Assembly: GCF_023701485.1 (NCBI RefSeq)
Contig: NZ_JAMQBK010000008.1
Coordinates: 62,001 to 126,000, forward strand
Length of the DNA: 64,000 bases
Direction: 5' to 3'
Source of the DNA: Aporhodopirellula aestuarii
Lineage (GTDB): Bacteria; Planctomycetota; Planctomycetia; Pirellulales; Pirellulaceae
This document shows positions 1,408 through 63,258 of the stretch, piece by piece; position 1 is the stretch's first letter, and every line of letters begins with the position of its first letter. The translations under genes and the position numbers were made by a program. The notes under the pieces are model-generated. The model was not told the origin of the DNA, searched no databases, and saw only the letters and a program-made list of their open reading frames with translations.

Positions 1408-2070
1408 CTAGCCGTCGGATTCGACTGGGCTGTCGGCTCGGATCTCTTCGATTCCGACACCTTCGCCACGATCAGGCGACAAGCGATAAACGCGATCGGC
1501 GTGACGGATGAAGTGATTGACATCGTGGTGGCTGATCATGAGGACTTGAAAGCCAAGTGCCGTGCCCGCTTCCTGAACGATCCGCGTGAGTTTGGGAACG
1601 AGGTCGGGGTGCAACCAGCAGTCTTGCTCATCGAGCACGAGGAACTTGCGGTGGCGTCGTTCGTCGAGTGTCGTGATCGCCAGCATTCGCAATCCGACCG
1701 AGACCACGTTGGCGACCGAGCCGCCTTGGCCTTTCATAATGTCTTCGCTGTTTTCACCACGAGAAATCGAAAATTCGACGCTGGCCGCTCCCCTCGCAAA
1801 CGAGGCACTGGCTTTGAACTCGATGTCCTGTTCGAGTACTTCCTGCAACGCCTTCGTCATCGTGTTTTCGATCAGCGTCAATTGTCGCTGGAACACGTCG
1901 TTGCCGAGCTGTTCGAGGGCGTTGGTGACATTGTCGGCGATCGCTAAGAACTGGTTCTCTTTCTCGAGCTGCGCGACGACCTTTTGTTGTCGAGACACGA
2001 GCTCATCACGCTTGCCCTCGATTCGATGGGCGCGGTTGCGAAGTTCAGCGAGATCGGGAAGCGTGGTCAA
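1408..2070 (-). CDS. C-terminal half of a split Rad50/SbcC-like ATPase
   Basis: A 220-residue protein that is only the second half of an SMC/Rad50-type ATPase. Residues 8-80 are charged and helical, as for a returning coiled coil. KGQGGS (113-118) is in the signature-motif position, FLVLDEQD (143-150) is Walker B, and ISHHD (179-183) is the H-loop. There is no Walker A; that motif is in the gene ending at 3898 in the same operon. The start is a TTG at 2070 with no clear ribosome site, and an in-frame TAG lies six codons upstream, so no longer start is possible. I infer that it pairs with the N-terminal half to complete the nucleotide-binding head. A RecF-like stand-alone role is less likely. 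Confidence 0.75.
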   Translation of the reverse strand: MTTLPDLAELRNRAHRIEGKRDELVSRQQKVVAQLEKENQFLAIADNVTNALEQLGNDVFQRQLTLIENTMTKALQEVLEQDIEFKASASFARGAASVEFSISRGENSEDIMKGQGGSVANVVSVGLRMLAITTLDERRHRKFLVLDEQDCWLHPDLVPKLTRIVQEAGTALGFQVLMISHHDVNHFIRHADRVYRLSPDRGEGVGIEEIRADSPVESDG

Positions 2071-2113
2071 GGGTTTGGCGTGGGGCTAGTGAAAGGGATC
2101 AACCAATAATTCG

Positions 2114-2370
2114 CCCTCCCCTCGTTTCGCTCGACCCTCCCAGAGGGAGGGTGATGAGATTTGGGGAAGGTTGTTTGGATAGTTTGTTTGGATGGAATCG
2201 GGGAAAAGATTATTTCACCCTCCCCTTGGGAGGGTCGGCTCGCTTCGGGCCGGGGAGGGTTGGGAGTCGGATTGAGTACTCGACCCTCCCCTCGCTTCGC
2301 TCGACCCTCCCGGAGGGAGGGTGATGAGATTTGGGGGAGGATATTGGGATGGTTTGTTTGGATGGAGTTA
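2114..2370. repeat. Two direct copies of a GGGAGGG-hairpin repeat
   Basis: Copies at about 2114-2200 and 2284-2370 share roughly 88 bp, each with the inverted arms CGACCCTCCC and GGGAGGGTGATGAG, then GATTTGGGG and a GTTTGTTTGGATGGA tail. A third CCCTCCCC/GGGAGGG hairpin lies between them. The block fills most of the 451-bp gap between the small coiled-coil gene and the Rad50 C-half gene, inside one operon. Confidence 0.85.
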
Positions 2371-2521
2371 GGGGCGATTGTTCCGGGTGTTGGCACCCCC
2401 GGCATTCATTGTACCGGGACTCCGTGCCTAGCCAGTTCCATCATCGCCGCAACCAATCTAACGAAATACACGCTTATCAAACGCGTCACTCCAAAGAACT
2501 GACGAGATGCGGTCGATTCGC

Positions 2522-2815
2522 TTATGCGTCGGCTGTTGTGTTTGCTGCGGTGGCCTTTTCGACTTCTGCCAGCTCACCGCTGATCTTGTCGAGCAACGTT
2601 TGGTATTCACTGCGACGCTGTTCGTTTTCGGTTTCCATTTTCTTGAGCATTTTTTTCAGCTCATCGACGTCGCTGGTGCCGAAGTCCTTGTCGGCTTCGG
2701 CTTGCAAGTTGGTCAGCTGCTTCTGAGCCTCTTGCAACTGCGTTTGCGCTTGGATCTTGCGCTCGTTGAGTTGTTCGTACTCGGACTTGAGCTGTTCGAT
2801 TGTGCGTGCGGTCAT
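2522..2815 (-). CDS. Small coiled-coil protein of the split Rad50/Mre11 operon
   Basis: A 97-residue, strongly charged protein with heptad-like Leu/Ile spacing over residues 5-85, consistent with one long coiled coil. It has no enzyme motif, signal or membrane segment. The ATG at 2815 is 27 bases after the stop of the Mre11-like gene. Placed between the two Rad50 halves and the nuclease, it could supply the missing part of the returning coiled-coil arm or act as an accessory subunit; this is inference from position and composition. I do not recognise it as a named family. Confidence 0.75.
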   Translation of the reverse strand: MTARTIEQLKSEYEQLNERKIQAQTQLQEAQKQLTNLQAEADKDFGTSDVDELKKMLKKMETENEQRRSEYQTLLDKISGELAEVEKATAANTTADA

Positions 2816-2842
2816 CGTGTCACTGGAAAAGGTATTTGGAAA

Positions 2843-3901
2843 TTATTGAGTGGAATGGGTCACTTCGGCCGCCAGTCGCATGATTTCGTCCGCGACTTCG
2901 GCATCGAACTGGGAAACGTTTTGTTCGAGGTAAGTTATCAGGCCCGCCCCGCTGTCGGTTTTTCGCTGCGTCAGTTCTCGCAGGTCAGCAATGAACGCGG
3001 AGCCATCGGCGGTTTCTTCTTCGGATGCGTCGCCGATCACTTCGGGATGGAATACATCGTCGAAAGGTTCATGGGGCACCCGCACCCAGCGCATCGACCA
3101 CGCCACACCGGCCTGCGATTCGAATTCAAACGCTTCGATCGCATCGTCCTTGACGACGCGGGTGTTGGTCGGAGGAACGACGCACACGACCGCGGGGATG
3201 TGAGCCCGCGACGCGTCACTGCGTGCCCGGCGGGTGATGTTGCCAGCCGTGATCCAGTTCGTGCCGTCTTTGCGGACCGGTTCCAACCGCCGATGGACGT
3301 GTCCGTTGACGATCAGGTCGATACCTGGAATTCGTTTGGGACGAATGCGGCCGGCTTCTTCGTATCCCGGAATCAAAATGTCGTGATGCGTGATCCAAGC
3401 GACGAGATCGGCATCCTCGCTTTCGTCGGCAAATAGTTGCCCGTTTTCAGGAGGACGCGAGACCCCGAGAAATTCTTTCGGCAGTCGTTCGCCCCAAACC
3501 GTTCCCCCCACAACGACGCGTCGCCCGTCGATCGTTCCGATCCAAGGTGCGTCTTCGGATAACAATCGAAGGTGGCCACCGGCAAACAGGATGCTGACCG
3601 AATCGTTCGGTTTACGCGTGTTTTCGCGAACGTCGTGGTTGCCGTGGATCGCGGGCAATCCCGCACCGTAGAAATCGGAAATCGTCTCGATGATCCGAGC
3701 CAGCAACCAGTTGGGGTTGTCTTGGGGCAGATGAAACAAATCGCCGAGCAGGATCGGTTGCAAGTTGTTGGTCCGCGCGTACTTCAAGCACCATGCGAAC
3801 TTGGCGACCGCGACTTGCGGGTAATCGTCTTTGCGGAAACCCGGGATGCGGGCCTCCAGGTGCGGGTCGCCGATGAAGAGTAGTCCGTCTTTCTCGATCA
3901 T
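2843..3901 (-). CDS. Mre11/SbcD-like metallophosphoesterase
   Basis: A calcineurin-type phosphoesterase of 352 residues. The dinuclear-metal motifs occur in order: GDPHL (D12, H14), GDLFH (D54), GNHD (N88, H89, D90), THHD and GHVH. Residues after about 265 form a short helical tail that may contact the ATPase. The ATG at 3901 overlaps the stop of the Rad50 N-half (ATGA), so translation is probably coupled. Mre11/SbcD nucleases process DNA ends with Rad50/SbcC. The operon context supports that role here, although family motifs alone would also fit another phosphodiesterase. Confidence 0.85.
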   Translation of the reverse strand: MIEKDGLLFIGDPHLEARIPGFRKDDYPQVAVAKFAWCLKYARTNNLQPILLGDLFHLPQDNPNWLLARIIETISDFYGAGLPAIHGNHDVRENTRKPNDSVSILFAGGHLRLLSEDAPWIGTIDGRRVVVGGTVWGERLPKEFLGVSRPPENGQLFADESEDADLVAWITHHDILIPGYEEAGRIRPKRIPGIDLIVNGHVHRRLEPVRKDGTNWITAGNITRRARSDASRAHIPAVVCVVPPTNTRVVKDDAIEAFEFESQAGVAWSMRWVRVPHEPFDDVFHPEVIGDASEEETADGSAFIADLRELTQRKTDSGAGLITYLEQNVSQFDAEVADEIMRLAAEVTHSTQ

Positions 3902-5526
3902 GCGGTCGACTCCTGCATCGCAACGCCATCGTCGTGATCGTGAGTCCCCGGAACGGTCGACATCAGCGTTTCCGGATCGATGCTGCCGCCGCACGTCGCG
4001 CACTTCGGATTCTTGCTCACGAAGTCGCGGATGAGTCGTTCGTGTTGTTGCAGCAAAGCTTGTGCATCGTCTGCCTTCGCCTGAGCTTGGGCGACTTCAG
4101 AGGAGGACCGCTTAATCCGTTCCAGCATCGTCTCGATCGGCTTGGGATCTTGGGGCGGTTCGGGCATCCGAAGCCCTTCCAGTTTGCTGGCCCGGTTCGC
4201 AATGCTCGCGTGTCGATCTTGTGCGCGGGTGAGCTCTCGAATGGTTTGCTCTAGCCGTTCGGTTGAAACAATCGTTGGCGGTGGCGTGAGTTCCTCGGTG
4301 ACCGCCAAACGGGATTTCATCGCCGCATGATTCGAGACGGCGTCGGATAACTGTTGGATCAGTTTCGAAATGCCGCGTGTGTCGTGTGAGGCCGGAGGCG
4401 ACGAGAGTTTTGACAACGTTTCGTCAGCACGCTTGGCGACCGCATGCGTGGTGATCGCTTCGGCGAGTCGACGTGCGGTTTGGCGGCACGCCTCGGCCGG
4501 TTGCATCGTTGGTGGAGGTACCAATGGGACGCAGCTTTTCGTGATCCGCTCAGCTGCGACGTGCCGACGATGCGCGTCACTGATTTTTTCGATCAACATT
4601 GCGAGGGCAGCCGCAGGGTGCTGCGCGGGCGGCGATTGCAGGCGTGAAAGGGTTTGGAATCGCGTCTTTTCACGATCACGGATTCCAGTCTGAACCGCGG
4701 CAGCGGAAAGCCACGAACGCAATTTTTCGCAATGCGTTTTGCTGGCGAGAAGCTTGTCCGGAGTCGTTTCGGCTTGGTCGAGCGTTTTGAGAATGGACAG
4801 CTCGTTTTGCCACCGTGTGACCTCGGCCGCGGACGATTGCAGGCGTTCGATCAGCGTGGTGAGGGTGCCCAGCCGCTGTTGTTGCAATTCGATCTGCGAA
4901 TGCAGTTTCTCAGCCAATTTGACCGATTCGCTGATCGAATCAATCGGTGTGAACGCGGCGAGTCGGGCGATGTTCTGTTCGCTTTCGCTGCTGAGTCGTT
5001 TCGCTTCGCTACGTGACTTGCTCGTTCGTGCACGATGGAGATGCTGCATCTCGACGAGTCTCGCCGCATCGGACGAGGACGCGAAGAACGCCGCCGCTCG
5101 GCTTCCGCTTTCATTGAGCAGAAACACCGGCGATTTTTGCTCGCCAAAGTGAATGTCATACTCGTTCTTTGTCGCACCATGTTCCGTCGTGACTTTGTCC
5201 AGACGCAAGACATCGTGGAGATTCTCTGGGATGCCTTGCCCAGTCCGATGAACGTCTTCGCCGTTGATGGTGTATTTGACGGTCGACTTTTTACGTTCCC
5301 AAACGATCGTTTGGTCGTCATCGGTTTCCACGGTGATGCGACAAACTTTGGATCCGTGACGCATCACGTGCGTTGTTCGGCCGTTGGACGCGATGATCTG
5401 CAGCGCCGAAACGAGCGCCGATTTGCCGCAGTTATTCGGTCCCGTGAGTACCGTCAATCCATCGGCGAGCTCGATCACAGTCGTGCCGTGAGACATGAAG
5501 TTTTCGAGCGTGATCTTTCGAATCAT
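3898..5526 (-). CDS. N-terminal half of a split Rad50/SbcC-like ATPase, ending at the zinc hook
   Basis: This 542-residue protein opens like Rad50/SbcC (MIRKITLENFMSHG) and has Walker A GPNNCGKS at 29-36. Residues about 170-500 are long charged helices, as in the outgoing coiled coil. Near the end comes CATCGG (C509, C512), the CxxC of a Rad50 zinc hook, and the protein stops 30 residues later. Signature, Walker B and H-loop motifs are absent; they are encoded separately at 1408-2070. Intact SbcC/Rad50 proteins are around 900-1300 residues and carry everything in one chain. The start overlaps the stop of the M32 peptidase gene (ATGA), and its own stop overlaps the Mre11-like start. Confidence 0.85.
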   Translation of the reverse strand: MIRKITLENFMSHGTTVIELADGLTVLTGPNNCGKSALVSALQIIASNGRTTHVMRHGSKVCRITVETDDDQTIVWERKKSTVKYTINGEDVHRTGQGIPENLHDVLRLDKVTTEHGATKNEYDIHFGEQKSPVFLLNESGSRAAAFFASSSDAARLVEMQHLHRARTSKSRSEAKRLSSESEQNIARLAAFTPIDSISESVKLAEKLHSQIELQQQRLGTLTTLIERLQSSAAEVTRWQNELSILKTLDQAETTPDKLLASKTHCEKLRSWLSAAAVQTGIRDREKTRFQTLSRLQSPPAQHPAAALAMLIEKISDAHRRHVAAERITKSCVPLVPPPTMQPAEACRQTARRLAEAITTHAVAKRADETLSKLSSPPASHDTRGISKLIQQLSDAVSNHAAMKSRLAVTEELTPPPTIVSTERLEQTIRELTRAQDRHASIANRASKLEGLRMPEPPQDPKPIETMLERIKRSSSEVAQAQAKADDAQALLQQHERLIRDFVSKNPKCATCGGSIDPETLMSTVPGTHDHDDGVAMQESTA

Positions 5527-61455: not shown

Positions 61456-63258
61456 ATGACGAAGCGACGAAACCGATCGAAAAAGCCACAAACGCCGCAA
61501 AATCGACCTGTCCAGGATGGTGCGGCGAATCGACCGCGTGAAACCAACTCTGGTGAAACTGGCGGCGATGATGCTCGCGTTGACGCTCACGATGAAGATG
61601 TCGGCGTTGAATGTTCAGGCGACGGCGGAATCGACGGCGCAGGAGGTGCGGGGCTGGAGTCGCTCGGCACGGGCAAGCCGTCGTTCTTCAAGAAAACTGC
61701 AGCCGCGTTTGGAAAGCCGAGCGAAACGGTGGAGGCTGCTGCCACGTCAGTTGTCCCACGCAAACAGATTCTGTTTCCCCAGTTGCCCTCGCTTTCGCGG
61801 ATCATGTCGGTGGTGATGTTGGTGATCGGGATCCTGGCCGTCGGGGTGCTGTTCTATCAGGTGATGGTGGGGTTTTTTGTTCCGTTGTTCTTGGCCGCAT
61901 TGTTGGTCGTGATCTTTCGGCCCGTGTACCTGTGGTTTCTGCTGAAGACGGGGCGTCGCAAGAGGTTGGCGGCCGGAATGACGACCGGATTGGTTCTGTT
62001 CATCGTGCTGTTGCCCTTAGTGATGTTGGTTTCGGTTGCGACGACCCAGTTCACAGTGTTGTTGTCGCGGATGAATGGCAGTGCATCGGTGGCGATGGAC
62101 CGGGTTCGCGGCCAACTAGGTTTGGACCTCATGCACGCGGATCACTTTCGCGAGCTCGATCGGATCGTTGACACGATGGGTATCGCGGGGCCAGGAATTG
62201 CCGCGGCGGAGGATCTGACGCCAGGAAAATACGACTTTGCCGCCAAGGCGGCTGAGTTGGACAAGGCGGCCGCGATCATTGAGTACTTGCAGAATGATGT
62301 GCCGGGGCCGGTTTCGGCGGACGAAGCGGCTGAGCGTGCGATCGCGAATACGAAGGAATTTGCCGACCAACTCCGCTCGGCCGAGCGAAAGAATATTGAT
62401 GATGAGTCCGAGGGCATTCTCAATCCGCTGCTGCGGCTCAATGTTTCGGAACAATTCGAACAGATGGCGGTTTTCACGGCCGCGTCAATTCGGACTTGGA
62501 TGCATCTGAAACTTGGCGGAGCGTTGCAGAGCCAATTGAAGTTGTTGGCTAACCCGGATGAAGCCGATTTTAGCCGGTTGATTCGAGGGGCCCGGGAATC
62601 ATTGCAGCCTCGGTTCGTGCGGCTGACCAGTGCCACGGGCAGCTTGCTCGCTCAGGTTTTGTTCGGGATGGTGATCTTGGTGATCTCGGTCTATTTCTTT
62701 TTGATCGATGGACCCAAGATGATCGCGACGTTGATGCGATTGTCTCCGATGGACGATGAGTACGAACATCAATTGTTGATGGAGTTTGACCGGACGAGCC
62801 GGGCGGTCGTGTTGGCAAGCGTGGCCAGCGCGATCGTTCAGGGGATTCTGGCGACGATCGGATTTTGGATCTGCGGTTTTGAGCAAATCGTGTTGTTGCT
62901 TTTCTTAACCAGTCTGATGGCCTTGGTGCCGTTTCTCGGGGCGGCGTCGGTGTGGGTGCCGTGTGCACTCTGGCTCGGCGTGGTCGATCAGCGGTGGCTC
63001 GCGGCAGCGTTGTTGGCACTTTGGGGGGCCGGCGTGGTGTCGTCGATCGACAACGTGATCAAGGTATATGTGTTGCATGGCCGCAGCCAATTGCACCCGC
63101 TTTTTGCGTTGCTGAGCGTGATCGGCGGGGTTTCTGTTTTCGGGCCGATCGGGATCTTGGTCGGGCCGATGGTCGTCGTGTTTTTGCAGACGCTACTAGA
63201 AATCCTCAACCACGAGATCCGGAATGAGGACGAGCAGCCGAAGCCGGATCAAGCCTAG
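61456..63258 (+). CDS. AI-2E (PerM/YdiK) family permease
   Basis: A 600-residue membrane protein with an unusual 100-residue acidic, disordered N-terminus (GGDDARVDAHDEDVGVE). The first pair of helices follows (IMSVVMLVIGILAVGVLF, FFVPLFLAALLVVIF), then a long soluble loop, then the conserved C-terminal group of helices (GVVSSIDNVIKVYVLHGRS, GGVSVFGPIGILVGPMVVVF). The family includes AI-2 exporters and PerM-type proteins of uncertain role, so the substrate should not be assumed. Confidence 0.88.
   Translation: MTKRRNRSKKPQTPQNRPVQDGAANRPRETNSGETGGDDARVDAHDEDVGVECSGDGGIDGAGGAGLESLGTGKPSFFKKTAAAFGKPSETVEAAATSVVPRKQILFPQLPSLSRIMSVVMLVIGILAVGVLFYQVMVGFFVPLFLAALLVVIFRPVYLWFLLKTGRRKRLAAGMTTGLVLFIVLLPLVMLVSVATTQFTVLLSRMNGSASVAMDRVRGQLGLDLMHADHFRELDRIVDTMGIAGPGIAAAEDLTPGKYDFAAKAAELDKAAAIIEYLQNDVPGPVSADEAAERAIANTKEFADQLRSAERKNIDDESEGILNPLLRLNVSEQFEQMAVFTAASIRTWMHLKLGGALQSQLKLLANPDEADFSRLIRGARESLQPRFVRLTSATGSLLAQVLFGMVILVISVYFFLIDGPKMIATLMRLSPMDDEYEHQLLMEFDRTSRAVVLASVASAIVQGILATIGFWICGFEQIVLLLFLTSLMALVPFLGAASVWVPCALWLGVVDQRWLAAALLALWGAGVVSSIDNVIKVYVLHGRSQLHPLFALLSVIGGVSVFGPIGILVGPMVVVFLQTLLEILNHEIRNEDEQPKPDQA

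Follow-up and report, generated by a model that had tools for sequence, protein, structure and literature searches.

Sequence evidence for a probable old two-chain Mre11-Rad50-type complex in bacteria and phages

Four neighbouring genes of the planctomycete Aporhodopirellula aestuarii, at positions 1,408 to 5,526 of a 64,000-nucleotide stretch (NCBI RefSeq assembly GCF_023701485.1, contig NZ_JAMQBK010000008.1, forward-strand positions 62,001 to 126,000; hereafter the window), appear to encode an old two-chain Mre11-Rad50-type complex. In this complex a Rad50-type ATPase would be divided between two proteins, here called the N-half and the C-half, and tied genetically to an Mre11-type nuclease and a small coiled coil. 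We hold this reading, which was reached by comparing sequences, with considerable confidence. Gene order, pairing of the halves in phages, mirrored trees, natural fusions and profile matches to the PDB together argue that the halves belong together, and the two chains most likely meet at the head. The genes and their motifs are as follows.

3898..5526, minus strand: N-half of the Rad50-type ATPase, 542 amino acids (aa); N-lobe, repeat arm and terminal zinc knuckle
5419..5442, minus strand: Walker A GPNNCGKS, N-half aa 29-36; G29, N31, N32, G34, K35 and S36 invariant in 14 rows
4144..4632, minus strand: proline-broken helical repeats of the N-arm, spaced 38-40 aa, read from the sequence and helical in the AlphaFold2 (AF2) model
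3991..4002, minus strand: CATC zinc-knuckle motif, N-half aa 509-512; CxxC in bacterial and viral N-halves
2843..3901, minus strand: Mre11/SbcD-like metallophosphoesterase, 352 aa; metal-ligand motifs intact, Mre11 by profile
2522..2815, minus strand: 97-aa small coiled-coil protein (helical hairpin), the conserved fourth component of the set
2071..2521, strand not assigned: 451-bp spacer between the coiled-coil and C-half genes, holding a 90-nt GC-rich direct repeat pair
1408..2070, minus strand: C-half of the Rad50-type ATPase, 220 aa, TTG start; short coil and C-lobe
1717..1731, minus strand: ABC (ATP-binding cassette) signature variant GQGGS, C-half aa 114-118; invariant in 19 of 19 rows
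1627..1644, minus strand: Walker B FLVLDE, C-half aa 143-148; D147 and E148 invariant in the 19-row alignment
1525..1533, minus strand: H-loop SHH, C-half aa 180-182, from the C-half alignment

Neither half has a full ATPase site. Walker A and the Q-loop glutamine (Q130, invariant at that position in N-half alignment A1) lie on the N-half, and the signature, Walker B and H-loop lie on the C-half, in which no Walker A was found. An initial annotation of the letters alone had described one gene with Walker A and a terminal CxxC and a second that lacks Walker A and has the signature, Walker B and H-loop; both descriptions held, the former at aa 29-36 and 509-512 and the latter in the C-half motifs. 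Both lobes expected of a Rad50 were thus found, the N-lobe with Walker A and Q-loop and the C-lobe with signature, Walker B and H-loop, but they do not share a single chain running through coil, hook and coil, being either separate or fused in reverse order. Pfam placed the N-half with AAA_15 and AAA_23, and the best matches in PHROGs were phrog_16465 for the N-half and phrog_15167 for the C-half. When the PDB was searched by sequence with the window N-half, Rad50 alone was returned, making up all nine sequences at E≤0.01 (best 1e-4), and a phage N-half profile had the Rad50 chains 3qf7_A (1e-6) and 3tho_A on top. A phage-seeded C-half profile had Rad50 C-terminal chains on top (3qkr_B at 1.7e-7, and 1ii8_B), with ABC transporters closely behind, and the bacterial and phage C-half profiles are homologous to each other (hhalign 99.6). 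As single queries, the window C-half and the window phosphoesterase gave no convincing PDB match. In Foldseek searches at E≤0.001, Rad50 made up four of the five matches to the AF2 model of the window N-half and eight of the 11 matches to that of a natural fusion of the halves, with low template modelling scores for both models (0.14-0.21 by query length); the fusion model may be taken as weak support for the Rad50 reading.

The arrangement recurs in other bacteria. When 84,980 species were searched with the C-half, 21 loci were found. To these we added 8 stretches from further C-half matches, with four more stretches serving as comparisons, and scored the content of the 29 loci by tblastn with self-queries excluded. 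The order N-half, phosphoesterase, coiled coil, C-half was complete in 22 of these 29 loci, which come from Planctomycetota and Desulfobacterota (21 of 28 if L011 and L092, apparently one contig, are counted once). Six of the seven incomplete loci are cut by contig ends (L010, L018, L019, L022, L028 and L029). A single-chain orthologue in a close relative, which the annotation had named as the mark of a recent break, was found in none of the bacterial or viral loci examined. Because the order is conserved and the catalytic residues are invariant, the four-gene arrangement lies far beyond chance, and we rejected chance open reading frames (ORFs) as an explanation. The C-half's TTG start aligns with the ATG of the orthologue in L009. 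The window's two flanking genes, which we take to be carboxypeptidase-like and deacylase-like, were found in only two of 27 loci, both from Rhodopirellula (several of the tested loci are short), which suggests that the four genes move together. Strong C-half matches were present in six of 148 genomes of the phylum of L017, the L017 genome included. Among 199 genomes of the window's own phylum, nine had a strong C-half (E below 1e-60) and 13 a weak match only. We read such weak matches (13 of 22 among the 199 genomes, and four of 25 among 198 Planctomycetia genomes) as chance or as distant ABC proteins; they have E values of 1e-3 to 1e-5, lie in larger frames and are excluded from the genomes counted below as carrying the split set.

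The same division of the ATPase is found in large phages. Viral scans gave 92 loci (13, 2 and 77 from separate scans, some contigs being repeated, and one N-half profile scan covering the best 80 of 82 matches) in which 64 N-half ORFs are distinct. Of these, the 61 uncut ones, two fusions included, all stop no more than 30 residues after CxxC, as the window N-half does exactly 30 residues past its CATC; the remaining three are cut by contig ends, and none of the 64 continues into a C-lobe. The stretch fetched around the 92 loci also holds the phosphoesterase in 63 and a separate C-half in 32. When 17 whole records were searched, a C-half was present in 14, namely the L017 genome, phages Magritte and Tunturi_5, the two fusion contigs and nine others. 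Put differently, nine of 12 unfused viral contigs chosen by their N-half carry a C-half elsewhere (two of the nine, whose N-half match figures coincide, may be near-identical), and the three without one are 60-83 kb long. Conversely, both of the phage isolates chosen by C-half hold an N-half. The halves lie at least 90 kb apart in Magritte, Tunturi_5 and G387, and in Bacillus phage vB_BboS-125 the proteins are gp32 (N-half, ending near CPLC), gp34 (a 78-aa helical protein) and gp35 (C-half). Neighbouring genes in the phage locus L106 encode a PD-(D/E)XK nuclease, a RecA/UvsX-like recombinase and a protein resembling a processivity factor, and the copy in Tunturi_5 is likewise near a UvsX-like recombinase. 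The N-half profiles found viral relatives; the bacterial C-half profile found none, and no pattern fit for scanning viruses could be drawn from the phage C-half alignment. In single-sequence tblastn, eight of 50,697 phage records matched any query used, and this weak detectability may explain why the phage pattern was missed. One phage C-half, L197 (G385:C1:88665-89279), has a single in-frame TGA, which could reflect recoding, a frameshift or a sequencing error.

Two viral contigs join the halves in a single frame. An ORF of 651 aa on contig 3300026484_000007 and one of 604 aa on contig 3300028534_000514 both place the C-half ahead of the N-half, and the fused chains terminate near CPLC or CQTC. 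The longer one matches phrog_15167 and then phrog_16465, in that order. Since the two fusions are 39% identical and are sisters in both half trees, a single fusion event is likely behind both contigs. They are natural evidence, read from sequence, that the halves would act jointly, and if the fused chains work, a connection through the hook would be dispensable. Across 40 paired sets (14 bacterial and 26 viral), distances in the N-half and C-half trees correlated at 0.88 overall, 0.85 within viruses and 0.78 within bacteria, and none of 500 permutations within either group reached as high a value. Bacterial members are monophyletic in both midpoint-rooted trees. Shared genome descent can account for much of this mirroring. 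On the strength of the fusions and mirrored trees we rejected the possibility that the N-half and C-half are unrelated ATPases.

Between the halves, at 3901-2522, the Mre11-like phosphoesterase and 97-residue coiled coil lie as first annotated, and the ATGA overlap noted there was confirmed: the phosphoesterase start overlaps the N-half end by these four bases, and a further ATGA overlap joins the N-half start to the stop of the preceding gene. Pfam matched the phosphoesterase to Metallophos, and its profile had Mre11 on top in the PDB (3auz at 1.3e-6, 4tug and 3av0). D12, H14, D54, N88, H89, H173, H201 and H203 are invariant in 15 rows, and the alignment (A3) has a conserved C-terminal segment; the adjacent Mre11-type phosphoesterase with metal ligands that a Rad50 system is expected to have is present. 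The phosphoesterase frames of L172 and L184 have LAGLIDADG-type matches, that of L172 below cut-off. For the small protein, the bacterial profile found no phage copies in the viral scan, and a phage-seeded profile gave 31 small ORFs, from viral loci and L055. Of the 32 loci in which phosphoesterase and C-half are separate genes, 27 have a small coiled-coil ORF placed between the two. Because of this position, its shape and a modest profile score, we link the phage family to the 97-aa family.

If the split were a Rad50 cut at its hook, the two chains should be matched antiparallel arms that rejoin at the zinc site. The CxxC does lie at the N-half's end, the place expected of a hook, and Foldseek matched the long Rad50 chains of 7zr1 over 613 columns, though with a root-mean-square deviation of 55. 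The lengths, however, do not fit. In length the N-arm exceeds the C-half coil several times over, and its CxxC, rather than lying at the apex of two matched arms, is terminal on the N-half, which alone supplies it (in 13 of 14 bacterial N-halves). Proline pairs in the window N-arm stand at 299, 337, 377, 415 and 455, and the AF2 model, of low overall confidence, has helices of about 30 residues between these breaks. Bacterial N-half orthologues differ by 39-column blocks and one 47-column block, and the distance from Walker A (GKS) to CxxC runs from 345 to 475 residues in 13 of them, whereas the C-half signature lies 101-122 residues from the start in all 19 rows. In viruses the corresponding figures are 321-460 (85 ORFs) against 111-119 (34 ORFs). 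With an N-arm that varies largely by steps of some 39 residues and a C-half coil of near-constant length, matched arms are unlikely, and the reverse-order fusions lack a hook connection as well. We therefore regard the hook-cut explanation as unlikely. Of the initial annotation's view of one Rad50-type ATPase with an Mre11 partner, the core is favoured by gene order, fusions, trees and PDB matches, but the joining of the halves through the zinc site and coiled coil finds no support, the arms being unequal. In L098 (6751-9021, genome G368) the N-half frame reaches 756 aa, far above other N-halves, and the phage N-half of L190 (4609-6729) has an intein-like insert in Walker A, with LAGLIDADG matches and a Hint match, the latter below its cut-off.

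The split set was found in 21 of 198 Planctomycetia genomes (E below 1e-90), which fall in 10 genera. YhaN-like or SbcD genes were present in 2 of these 21 as against 127 of the 177 others (Fisher p 3.6e-8, uncorrected for phylogeny), where another Mre11-Rad50 system was defined as AAA_27 at E≤1e-30 or SbcD above cut-off, thresholds that were picked after seeing the tables. With an alternative threshold for SbcD-like genes, E≤1e-7, a hand count gave 2 of 21 versus 143 of 177. Genera g167 and g218 each include one species that has the split set but no strong AAA_27 match and another with a strong AAA_27 match but no split set. The A. aestuarii genome itself had no SbcC above cut-off among the best three of 47 candidates scored, the match found being one of 25 bits in a 1226-aa frame; since the genome searches for SbcC, AAA_27 and the C-half scored best candidates only, absence in them is not proof. 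This genome holds two further large AAA_23 proteins, L001 (G000:C91, 1226-aa frame), which may be an SMC, and L002 (G000:C103, 1385-aa frame). By analogy, and drawing in part on the account of T4 gp46/47 in PMC3175470, the bacterial set probably does the work of SbcCD or YhaNO and the phage set probably that of T4 gp46/47 in recombination and replication; we infer DNA-end processing like that of SbcCD or T4 gp46/47.

We consider it improbable that the set is a system for defence against phages built on an SMC/Rad50-like sensor, as in Lamassu. The N-half does score with the profiles of AriA (2.6e-13), LmuB (2.1e-10, matched over 2-505) and GajA, and the spread across genera is patchy. Against this, a scan limited to the four proteins gave no LmuA or LmuC (for the N-half, among the best 25 of 74 families), phages themselves carry the set, in L106 beside UvsX-like, nuclease and clamp-like genes, and it is near-exclusive with YhaN-like and SbcD genes. 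Recent breakage of an ordinary SbcC gene, by frameshift or by decay, would agree with the SbcC result in the A. aestuarii genome, but this split is shared, with its gene order and motifs, by phages and two bacterial phyla, its halves are separated by other conserved genes and the catalytic residues are invariant; we rejected this explanation on the conserved split and find it hardly credible. That the two ATPase parts act separately rather than as one head is suggested by phages in which the genes lie far apart (in G387, the N-half at 44.7 kb and the C-half at 369 kb). This too is very improbable, as neither part has a complete set of ATPase motifs, and the parts co-occur, have mirrored trees and are fused in nature.

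Several observations nevertheless weigh against a two-chain Mre11-Rad50-type complex. The C-half signature is GQGG instead of LSGG, and on its own the bacterial C-half profile matches the PDB weakly, an SMC/cohesin chain being its best match (0.001). The AF2 model of the window N-half has a predicted template modelling score (pTM) of 0.27 and does not settle arm geometry or lobe contact; for the fusion the pTM is 0.50, and alignment A9 put C-half rows on the N-half region. CxxC is missing from the N-half of L025 and from Magritte gp155. Bacterial and phage coiled-coil families are modestly linked (hhalign probability 77), and high scores come easily to coiled coils. One locus, L015 (7001-7633), has an orphan C-half, the other three genes being absent from 14.6 kb (7 kb on each side). 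Both systems are present in G291 (YhaN-like AAA_27) and in G368 (SbcD), 50 of the 177 genomes without the split set also lack YhaN-like and SbcD genes at these thresholds, and the exclusion statistic is inflated because 10 of the 21 split genomes belong to one genus.

A two-chain complex of this kind could work as follows. One N-half and one C-half would form one head through lobe-lobe contact and pairing of their coil bases, and a pair of such heads, together with two Mre11 subunits, would act as the nuclease's gate and bind ATP as well as DNA ends. The N-arm, built of repeats, would project, and its CxxC could join it to a second N-arm through zinc; the small coiled coil might stand in for the absent return strand by pairing with the arm. 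A bolder proposal, which we put forward tentatively and at somewhat less than even chances, is that these genes form a separate old Mre11-Rad50 lineage, with four obligatory subunits, a heterodimer head, an open arm stacked from proline-broken helical units (about 39 residues each) without a return arm, a one-chain hook, the 97-aa protein as return strand, transfer between bacterial chromosomes and large phages, and displacement of SbcCD and YhaNO. With an open arm, the number of units could change freely because there would be no return arm to match.

Mre11-Rad50 complexes as a kind are known; the two-chain form, the unit-length arm, the fourth component and the reverse-order fusion appear to be new. 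With Mre11-Rad50, SbcCD and T4 gp46-gp47 the split set shares the Rad50 N- and C-lobes, the Mre11-type nuclease, the CxxC and the gene neighbourhood. Unlike these, it has its lobes on two chains, unequal arms, proline-broken N-arm units of about 39 residues, a conserved small coiled-coil protein and the GQGG/xGG signature. YhaO-YhaN (AAA_27 with an SbcD-like phosphoesterase) is another bacterial Mre11-Rad50-like pair, but a single chain of about 1,200 aa, and shares a genome with the split set in one of 21 cases. A strong AAA_27 match occurs in 92 of the 198 Planctomycetia genomes, with a phosphoesterase adjoining in three of four loci inspected, and from AAA_27 and this adjacency we presume these pairs to be YhaNO. 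The window N-half is not of YhaN type, having 542 aa and an AAA_27 score of 23.1 bits (cut-off 22), and the best AAA_27 match in its own genome was 1.5e-13 among the best 14 of 59 candidates scored. Chain-A/chain-B Rad50 heads in the PDB were made for structural work; in 1f2t, 1ii8 and 3qkr the halves match chains A and B respectively, but here the separate N and C genes are natural. In PHROGs, phrog_16465 ('exonuclease') and phrog_15167 ('ATPase') are separate families whose descriptions mention no connection; they match the N-half and C-half respectively, and both match the fusion.

The literature compared includes portions of PMC7824862, PMC8066314 and PMC3175470. The portion of PMC3175470 describes Mre11/Rad50 fusion proteins as a rearranged architecture in viruses and bacteria, with one P-loop segment not observed in two members; there Mre11 is joined to Rad50, whereas here Rad50 itself is divided or circularly permuted. 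For jumbo phages, the portion of PMC7824862 covers split DNA polymerase III and RNA polymerase and mentions SbcC without a split. A split or circularly permuted Rad50 was not found in the literature searched, which left most subscription papers and bioRxiv preprints outside its scope.

The orphan phage families phrog_16465 and phrog_15167 can now be named as halves of one enzyme. In a standard Rad50 the chain goes out to the hook and returns, letting tip and head signal. A natural Rad50 without the link from hook to return arm, and with an arm that changes in unit steps, would allow the purpose of hook and return arm to be tested directly, including whether signalling by ATP, DNA and zinc depends on an unbroken chain. 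The set also points to a small conserved subunit and suggests a planctomycete substitute for SbcCD or YhaNO.

Within the locus, the 90-nt repeats of the spacer between the coiled-coil and C-half genes (2114-2203 and 2284-2373) have a core pattern that, in the window, is confined to them; they are GC-rich, in direct orientation, 89% alike and contain dyads.

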